Positions 3,302 through 5,784 of a stretch of DNA of 23,488 bases are shown piece after piece. The number at the start of each line of letters is the position of its first letter. Position 1 is the stretch's first letter. This DNA is from a virus. Made by a program: the position numbers and the translations under genes. The stretch spans positions 1 through 23,488 of IMG/VR virus record IMGVR_UViG_3300027573_000117, one strand, 5' to 3'. Below the pieces are notes generated by a model. The model did no database searches, was not told the DNA's origin, and saw only the letters and a list, made by a program, of their open reading frames with translations.

Positions 3302-3481
3302 TCAAAGATTGAGCGTCAGCGGACACAGCTCATACGACTTGATCGTGATCGCTACTTCTGACCCTAGGTGGTCATAGAAACAAATCTTGTTAATCCCTGA
3401 GATTCGCTCGTACTTGAAGAACGCTGTCCCTGCGTAAGCCGAGGACGAGATCAAAGCCAGAACTAGTACTAAGGTTTTCAT
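3302..3481 (-). CDS. Exported 59-residue protein with signal peptide
   Basis: ATG 3481 is preceded by AAGGA at 8 bases. The product begins with a textbook Sec signal peptide: Lys2, a hydrophobic run LVLVLALISS, and a probable cleavage after AYA (residue 17). The mature part is about 42 residues with two cysteines (Cys34, Cys52) that could form one disulfide, a central CFYDHLGSEVAITIKS and a terminal ELCPLTL. It resembles small secreted proteins seen in other phages and prophages, of unknown role. It sits between regulators and an HNH nuclease in the leftward early operon, an odd place for a periplasmic protein. A role in superinfection exclusion or envelope modification is speculation. Confidence 0.85.
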   Translation of the reverse strand: MKTLVLVLALISSSAYAGTAFFKYERISGINKICFYDHLGSEVAITIKSYELCPLTLNL

Positions 3482-3484
3482 TCG

Positions 3485-3694
3485 TTAGTTCCTTACCAAA
3501 GAATATACGGCAACTCTGCTGCCACCTCTTGTGCGCTTGTAGTCGGTGCGAATGTCGCAACCGTCGAGACGTAGGTCGTAGATTCTCGCGCCTAACCGAT
3601 AGATTCCGAGCTTTCTCAGAGCTGTCAGAGGGTCTAGCGGTCCTTGTCTCGAGAGCCAGCGCAACACGCGCAACGTTTGATTCTCCGGTTTCAT
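3485..3694 (-). CDS. Small winged-helix DNA-binding protein (HTH_39-like)
   Basis: 69 residues from ATG 3694, chosen because AGGA lies 9 bases upstream and the ATG overlaps the upstream stop as ATGA. An ATG three codons earlier is also possible. The sequence NQTLRVLRWLSRQGPLDPLT followed by RKLGIYRLGARIYDLR is typical of the phage helix-turn-helix family often placed in HTH_39 (PF14090), with a basic wing near residues 47-60. Likely a small transcription or replication regulator acting in the cytoplasm. It is co-transcribed with the two other HTH-like genes upstream. Confidence 0.85.
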   Translation of the reverse strand: MKPENQTLRVLRWLSRQGPLDPLTALRKLGIYRLGARIYDLRLDGCDIRTDYKRTRGGSRVAVYSLVRN

Positions 3695-4663: not shown

Positions 4664-4694
4664 TCCCTCTCCTCTTCCTCTTGAAGGTTTTCGG

Positions 4695-4883
4695 TCAAAA
4701 TCCCATCGTGCCTTGTCGTTCGTTGACCGCGCCTTCCGCCCAGAATCTTTCACGCGGCCACTCAGGCATGTTCCAAATCCAAGCGATGAATCCGCAAACG
4801 CGACAGCGCTTGTAACGAGCGACGGTCTCGCCGTCTCGTACTACTTCGTGATCGTTTGTTTCGCCACCGCATTTGCACTGCAT
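4695..4883 (-). CDS. Small zinc-ribbon protein
   Basis: 62 residues from ATG 4883, the ATG just before the CxC motif. The longer frame to 5000 runs into sequence that does not look coding. A C-x-C-G-G motif (Cys3, Cys5) and a C-x-x-C-G motif (Cys27, Cys30) frame a short beta hairpin (ETVARYKRCRVCGF), the layout of a zinc ribbon. An aromatic tail (FIAWIWNMPEW) follows. The site upstream is purine-rich (AAGAGAAAGAG) but not a canonical ribosome site. First protein gene of the leftward operon after the RNA-rich region. Possible transcription or nucleic-acid-binding factor. Confidence 0.8.
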   Translation of the reverse strand: MQCKCGGETNDHEVVRDGETVARYKRCRVCGFIAWIWNMPEWPRERFWAEGAVNERQGTMGF

Positions 4884-5132
4884 AACTCTTTCTCTTAGTG
4901 GGGATGCTTCCGGGGTGACGGGGTGCGCCGAGTTATCCCAATGAAGGGATACCAGGCGCAGCACTCCATGCCACCGGGGCTTAGAGGTGTGAGCGGCCAC
5001 TGTCCGTTTCCGGTCGAGTCTTTCGGCTTCCGCTCGCCTACCGATGCGCTTCGCTCGAATCCCTTGGTAGCGCAGTGCCGTGCAGACGCCAACGTTATGA
5101 TTTCCCGCCCGTTTGCACGGTCGGATTTGGCT
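4884..5132 (+). other. Gene-poor segment without a supported gene
   Basis: I see no convincing coding frame on either strand here. ORFs that cross it have low-quality composition and no ribosome sites. One perfect 6-bp hairpin is present (TATCCC at 4934-4939 pairing with GGGATA at 4946-4951, 6-base loop). The segment lies between the leftward gene block and the RNA-like region, so it may hold the leader and promoter of the leftward genes or a replication origin. Neither could be shown. Confidence 0.4.
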
Positions 5133-5143
5133 TGTGTTAAACT
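5133..5143 (+). promoter_or_regulatory. Candidate extended -10 promoter
   Basis: TGTGTTAAACT carries the TGn extended -10 signature ahead of TAAACT (4 of 6 matches to TATAAT). No good -35 lies at 17 bases. Transcription would begin near 5150 and run through three hairpins to the terminator ending at 5290. Weak on its own; the terminator gives it context. Confidence 0.4.
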
Positions 5144-5290
5144 GGCGGCAAGTCGGTGAAGGAGTGAGTGCTCGTTACACTTGCTGCCGGTTGGACGCCA
5201 ATCCAGACCCGACGAATAAAATGTACGCCACCCACGGCGTACTAGCAAGAGCCTCCGAGGTGCCACCGCTACTCGGGGGCTTTTGTTTTT
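5144..5290 (+). ncRNA. Candidate small RNA or structured leader with three hairpins
   Basis: Three successive inverted repeats fill this stretch. The first pairs GGCGGCAAGT (5144-5153) with ACTTGCTGCC (5178-5187), nine Watson-Crick pairs and one G-T pair. The second is a perfect 7-bp stem, GTACGCC (5223-5229) with GGCGTAC (5236-5242). The third is the terminator stem at 5247-5284. No good ORF lies inside. Two readings are open: a free RNA of about 140 bases ending at the terminator, or an attenuating leader for the 53-codon ORF starting at 5301, whose Shine-Dalgarno begins directly after the T-tract. Structures are read by eye; no family is recognised. Confidence 0.5.
5247..5290 (+). terminator. 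Rho-independent terminator
   Basis: GCCTCCGAG (5251-5259) pairs with CTCGGGGGC (5272-5280) with one G-T pair. The stem extends through A-T and G-T pairs into the flanks, with a 12-base loop, followed by TTTTGTTTTT (5281-5290). Strong on the plus strand; the minus strand lacks a T-tract in the right place. Confidence 0.8.
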
Positions 5291-5300
5291 CGGAGGACCG

Positions 5301-5462
5301 ATGGAAACGAAACCGCTCCACATCGTCCGTCTGGAAGACCTGCAGCCCATCCGGGCCCCGGAAACCTTTGCGCCCGATGAGCTGGTGATCGTGGTGGAGG
5401 CTGTTCCCATGATCGTCACCCTCGGCGAGCTGGCTGAGGTTCAGGAACTTCAGGCGGCGTAG
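5301..5462 (+). CDS. 53-residue acidic microprotein after the terminator
   Basis: ATG 5301 has a very good ribosome site, GGAGG at 5292-5296 with 4 bases between. The product begins METKPLHIVRLEDLQPIRAP and continues with an acidic, hydrophobic segment (DELVIVVEAVPMIVTLGELA). No Cys, no membrane helix of full length, no family recognised. The gene sits directly behind an intrinsic terminator and its stop codon abuts the long inverted repeat starting at 5462. Expression would therefore depend on readthrough or antitermination. It points rightward towards the 3' end of the Cro-like gene. Confidence 0.65.
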   Translation: METKPLHIVRLEDLQPIRAPETFAPDELVIVVEAVPMIVTLGELAEVQELQAA

Positions 5463-5591
5463 AGAGGGCTTGAGTGGATGAGCAGGCATCCTGATACGCC
5501 GCGGTCGCCGAGTCGAACAGCTCACCGCCAATCGTAGCCCCGATAGCGCTTGTGGTCAGTTCCACAGCCTGCCCATCCCTAAAGCCCTCTC
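5462..5591. ncRNA. Long inverted-repeat RNA-like element with three internal hairpins
   Basis: GAGAGGGCTT (5462-5471) is the perfect reverse complement of AAGCCCTCTC (5582-5591). After a 4x3 internal loop, GGATGAGCAGGC (5476-5487) pairs with GCCTGCCCATCC (5567-5578) at 11 of 12 positions. Inside this 21-bp closing helix lie GCGGT/ACCGC (5501-5505 with 5524-5528), ATCG/CGAT (5531-5534 with 5541-5544) and TGTGG/CCACA (5551-5555 with 5562-5566). The result is a multibranch structure. Both strands fold nearly equally, so the transcribed strand is unknown. It begins 4 bases after the Cro-like stop when read on the minus strand. Sequence symmetry is direct observation; function as RNA, attenuator or protein-binding site is inference. 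Confidence 0.55.
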
Positions 5592-5595
5592 ATGT

Positions 5596-5784
5596 CTACG
5601 CCCGCTTGCGTCTATAGGTGACGACCTTGACGAGACCCAGCGCCTTTAGCACTGCCGGTCCAGCCTCCTTTCGCCCTTTCAGCATGTCGTTTAGATACTG
5701 CGGCGAGATGCCCAGCTCTTCAGCGACTACCGTCTGTGCCGCGCCATTGCAACGGTCCCTGAGTACTGCTATTGGGTGTATCAT
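5596..5784 (-). CDS. Cro-like helix-turn-helix repressor
   Basis: 62 residues from ATG 5784. Residues about 14-44 (AAQTVVAEELGISPQYLNDM, then LKGRKEAGPAVLKALGL) form a typical lambda-Cro/XRE helix-turn-helix: Gln17 opens helix 2, Gly25-Ile-Ser make the turn, and QYLNDMLKGRK is the recognition helix. The C-terminus is a short basic strand (VVTYRRKRA). Such proteins dimerise on operators between divergent promoters. Here the gene diverges from the rightward early operon, with the 5785-5917 interval between, as expected for a phage switch. No CI partner or integrase is in the window, so whether the phage is temperate is open. Confidence 0.82.
   Translation of the reverse strand: MIHPIAVLRDRCNGAAQTVVAEELGISPQYLNDMLKGRKEAGPAVLKALGLVKVVTYRRKRA

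Follow-up and report, generated by a model that had tools for sequence, protein, structure and literature searches.

The 3' ends of two convergent phage genes meet at a lineage-specific interrupted inverted repeat, a candidate bidirectional 3'-end hairpin

In phage lambda, the sib-type 3' hairpin is the basis of RNase III retroregulation. Across 40 bacterial genomes, stem-loops are concentrated between convergent genes and in the 50 bp around stop codons (PMC1590033), and bacterial bidirectional terminators between convergent genes have been described (Ju 2019, as cited in PMC11347151). Like the stem-loops of convergent spaces, the element analysed here is a stable inverted repeat with the 3' end of a coding gene on either side, the two genes converging on it. 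It falls outside the definition of an intrinsic bidirectional terminator, which comprises a GC-rich stem, a short loop and a U-run on each strand, because no U-run follows its stem.

The window, by which we mean the whole stretch of 23,488 bases that was analysed, is an IMG/VR virus record encoding a RecT/Bet-type annealing protein, NinG and HNH nucleases, together with a tail protein that resembles podovirus tail proteins. The inverted repeat sits between two genes whose 3' ends converge on it. The plus-strand gene (5301–5462) has 53 codons, a coding score of 0.25 and no assigned function; PHROG and Pfam searches returned no matches, and a relative with 77% identity is present in locus L042. 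The minus-strand gene (5596–5784) is a Cro-like helix-turn-helix gene (Pfam HTH_3, E 8e-6; PHROG 1468 transcriptional repressor, E 6e-4).

The left arm of the repeat occupies 5462–5487 (GAGAGGGCTTGAGTGGATGAGCAGGC) and the right arm 5567–5591 (GAGAGGGCTTTAGGGATGGGCAGGC in the minus-strand reading), the latter with the Cro-like stop on one side of it and the GTG of a 49-codon minus-strand frame on the other. Local alignment of the left arm with the reverse complement of the right joins these 26 and 25 nt with two mismatches and a single one-base gap. Both arm pairs that an earlier note on this DNA had described are present, the perfect outer one of 10 bp at 5462–5471/5582–5591 and the inner one, matching at 11/12, ending at 5487/5567. 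The placement of the element in that note likewise holds, with position 5462 being the last base of the plus gene's TAG (5460–5462) and the right edge separated by 4 bases from the Cro-like TAG (5596–5598). The similarity between the arms runs further outward than that note had seen. CA.GC.GGCGTA is found on both sides. Both extensions lie inside gene 3' ends: that of the left arm covers 5451–5461 (CAGGCGGCGTA) in the plus gene, and that of the right arm covers 5592–5608, with a 5-nt bulge, in the Cro-like gene. The extended alignment has about 33 matches in 43 columns and continues past the two stop codons into the final codons of each gene.

Predicted folding of the 130 nt gives −59.3 kcal/mol on the plus strand and −70.1 kcal/mol on the minus strand, where the element is the window's best fold. 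Comparison of the whole element with dinucleotide shuffles, the check that the earlier note had proposed, yields z of −5.4 (plus) and −5.8 (minus). This signal traces entirely to the arms. The 79-nt interior (5488–5566), folded alone, is no more stable than its shuffles (z 0.09 plus, −0.62 minus), and the 'three further perfect stems' reported within it are only 4–5 bp each, which at these z values is what any GC-rich sequence yields. The proposal of a multibranch structured RNA is therefore unsupported. Rfam, at gathering and relaxed thresholds, holds nothing credible for the element. Proximity to a Cro-like gene and a z below −5 for the whole fold would suit a phage switch that works through a multibranch regulatory RNA or a DNA cruciform, but an interior that is not structured beyond chance, the lack of an Rfam match, absence of the element from relatives and copies without variation make such a switch very improbable. 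Other identities were set aside. The retron msr-msd has the same layout of a closing repeat around hairpins and was dismissed because no reverse transcriptase was noticed, by eye, among the open reading frames. Imperfect arms, a single orientation in all copies and no recombinase noticed in the vicinity led us to reject an invertible DNA segment. Inspection by eye revealed neither hammerhead-like cores nor CRISPR-like repeats.

The repeat is the strongest in the window and was equalled in 1 of 1,000 whole-window shuffles. The Gumbel p of the arm pair, about 0.002, refers to one window, and many windows and features were screened. Hence the description of the symmetry as far beyond chance stands against shuffles, 999 of 1,000 of which are beaten, but not against natural phage DNA: about 325 kb of related phage loci that had not been fetched for a repeat contain five scoring at least as high as the arm pair, two of them with loops longer than 90 nt. 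This corresponds to roughly one per 65 kb, or about 0.36 per 23.5 kb. Both this frequency and a p of only about 0.002 among many windows speak for chance symmetry, or for mutational palindrome formation with no function. The exact placement of the repeat between convergent stop codons argues the other way, and we consider a chance origin unlikely.

We lean, tentatively and with a little less than even confidence, towards a bidirectional 3'-end hairpin. Paired, the arms are predicted to give a helix of 22–24 bp immediately behind either stop codon. Pairing is slightly better on the Cro-gene strand, where an A-C mismatch seen on the plus strand is replaced by a G-U pair in the minus-strand RNA. 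On transcription from either side, this helix would form behind the stop codon, shield both messages at their 3' ends and slow or release polymerases that would otherwise enter the opposing gene in antisense; the hairpin may also be an RNase III substrate. Transcription through the element, its folding in the cell and an effect on termination or stability are suggested by its position and fold. The fit of the arms between the stop codons, with one arm starting on a stop and the other ending 4 nt short of the second, argues for such a hairpin, as do the z-scores below −5 on both strands with their signal in the arms alone, the repeat's rank as the best in the window, and, for the minus-strand RNA, the added G-U pair and the window's best minus-strand fold.

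Several features weigh against it. Neither strand has a U-run after the stem, and a terminator scan found no terminator-like site in 5462–5591 (tails ATGTCTACGC and TACGCCGCCT). At 79 nt, the loop is longer than expected of an intrinsic terminator, and a canonical terminator-like hairpin lies further on along the minus strand at 5242–5223. The repeat is not conserved, being absent from the closest relative and from eight Cro-family loci. Moreover, strong repeats were not clearly linked to convergent gaps in a rough survey, where a repeat scoring at least 14 occurred in 2 of 44 convergent, 4 of 94 codirectional and 0 of 39 divergent gaps. Without a U-run, RNA stabilization, polymerase slowing or RNase III cutting is as likely as true termination. 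Of the readings offered in the earlier note (regulatory RNA, bidirectional attenuator, protein-binding cruciform), the part that survives is a bidirectional 3'-end structure, which suits the convergent stops; a multibranch regulatory RNA lacks support.

Comparison with relatives shows where the repeat is found. The region recurs without change in two other contigs, both from one metagenome. All copies found are identical and come from one virus population, and divergent homologues of the repeat were not found, so there is no variation in which to examine arm pairing. Phage and plasmid records contain no DNA similar to the element. Both flanking genes were found together in just one relative, L008 (the same contig as L042), which is 89% identical over window positions 4668–5413 and then diverges. 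Its slot contains no such inverted repeat and instead carries a gene for a C-5 cytosine methyltransferase-domain protein of 231 aa (Pfam E 3e-8; L008 3628–4323, minus strand), which overlaps the Cro-like gene through ATGA and at its other end overlaps the 3' end of the plus gene. Eight Cro-family loci (L064–L071, L071 being the L008 contig) have no long repeat after the gene, their best score being 9.5 as against 17.5. In each of the eight, a codirectional gene closely follows the Cro-family gene in our reading of the sequence, formally listed only for L065 and L008. The methyltransferase in L008 and the repeat-free Cro-family loci thus indicate that the slot is variable and the repeat lineage-specific. 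The space behind the Cro-like gene appears to be a gene-exchange slot, filled by a methyltransferase in one phage and by a repeat with a coding-like remnant in another.

The coding-like sequence is on the Cro-gene strand. A minus-strand frame is open across the whole element, in the reading frame of the Cro-like gene with two stops between, and from a GTG start it runs for 49 codons (5416–5565). Its 28 interior codons score +0.24 per codon against the phage's own codon usage. Real coding windows have a median of 0.18, which places this score at their 71st percentile, and it is reached by 0.9% of 340 stop-free wrong-frame windows. Exactly one frame of the interior has such codon use, which suggests that the interior may be a small gene in its own right or what is left of a gene lost from the slot. 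The earlier note had named a conserved protein frame across the element as something that might explain its symmetry. A coding-like frame does span the interior, but it leaves the pairing of the arms unexplained: synonymous recoding of the 49-codon frame lost the fold in 998 of 1,000 trials (z −3.7).

It is possible, if rather doubtful, that the interior is coding, as a 49-codon gene or the 3' remnant of a gene behind the Cro-like gene, and that the repeat is a functionless by-product of rearrangement. Apart from codon use in a single frame, the layout of relatives points this way. They have a codirectional gene directly behind the Cro-like gene, as with the methyltransferase of L008 and its ATGA overlap, and in the window an ATGA is kept at the matching place, now followed by a stop after only 4 codons. 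The 89% match to L008 ends at 5413, adjoining the stop of the frame (5416–5418), and in L008 this is at the methyltransferase stop. Set against these observations, the 49-codon peptide has no relatives in Pfam, PHROGs, phage records or 20 related records, the ribosome-binding site ahead of the GTG is weak, and coding alone does not account for the arm pairing. A remnant of the L008 methyltransferase itself was rejected, as comparison by eye found no similarity besides the shared ATGA position. In the minus-strand reading, the 5' arm fills nearly the whole gap from the Cro-like stop to this GTG, so the small protein could be made only once ribosomes ending the Cro-like gene had opened the stem. 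A translational-coupling switch on a hidden small gene, tied in this way to repressor synthesis, strikes us as exceedingly improbable.

Another reading is a MITE- or REP-like insertion, either a short mobile element or an extragenic-repeat unit, with terminal inverted repeats of about 26 bp. The length of about 130 bp, the terminal inverted repeats and an intergenic slot that differs from that of a relative all fit, and arm patterns searched in viral and genome contigs returned three other viral contigs with intergenic inverted repeats that have the same 10-bp ends at a similar distance, as well as one Verrucomicrobia MAG with a single similar arm. The three contig repeats, however, are generic and share just the searched ends, and the MAG match is near chance level and single-copy in that MAG. 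Neither a target-site duplication (the flanks, read directly, are GGCGTA and ATGTCT) nor a second copy in the window is present, plasmid and phage records yield no DNA match, and the arms together with the inner part were matched nowhere else in the limited collections searched with exact patterns. Insertion of such an element is therefore quite unlikely. MITE/REP-type repeats resemble the element in being about 130 bp, intergenic and bounded by terminal inverted repeats; the element is unlike them in being single-copy, with no target-site duplication and no related copies having the same interior. Two viral contigs have features of their own: L054 (2783–7221 and 5971–6144) carries many intergenic palindromic repeats of the CCCTCCCCC type and an inverted repeat with 75-nt arms, and L051 has at 3380–3510 a sequence that looks integron attC-like by eye, beside a long intergenic inverted repeat.

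The locus also draws attention to a structured RNA beside the repeat. Upstream of the small plus gene, plus-strand positions 5118–5290 (L008 3346–3512) are likely to encode a conserved phage RNA, which is better conserved than the inverted repeat. It consists of a 99-nt long imperfect hairpin (z −5.9) that is 100% identical in the window phage and L008, a 20-nt hairpin with two compensatory pairs, and a terminator-like hairpin followed by a T-run in the window. Rfam gave no match to it and phage records no relative. The minus-strand hairpin at 5242–5223 (GTACGCC...GGCGTAC; ATTTTATT) is a candidate for the true terminator of the Cro-like transcript.

The element is thus real, lineage-specific and ordinary in kind, and is not a demonstrated regulatory RNA. 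By itself it matters little, stem-loops at the ends of convergent genes being widespread. With these stem-loops and with bidirectional terminators it shares a repeat between convergent 3' ends, located at the stop codons and folding on both strands; it differs from them in having no U-run and a 79-nt loop in place of a tight hairpin. Its genes converge whereas those at the lambda sib-type hairpin are codirectional. Like the sib-type hairpin, it offers a long imperfect stem downstream of a phage gene, of sufficient length for RNase III.
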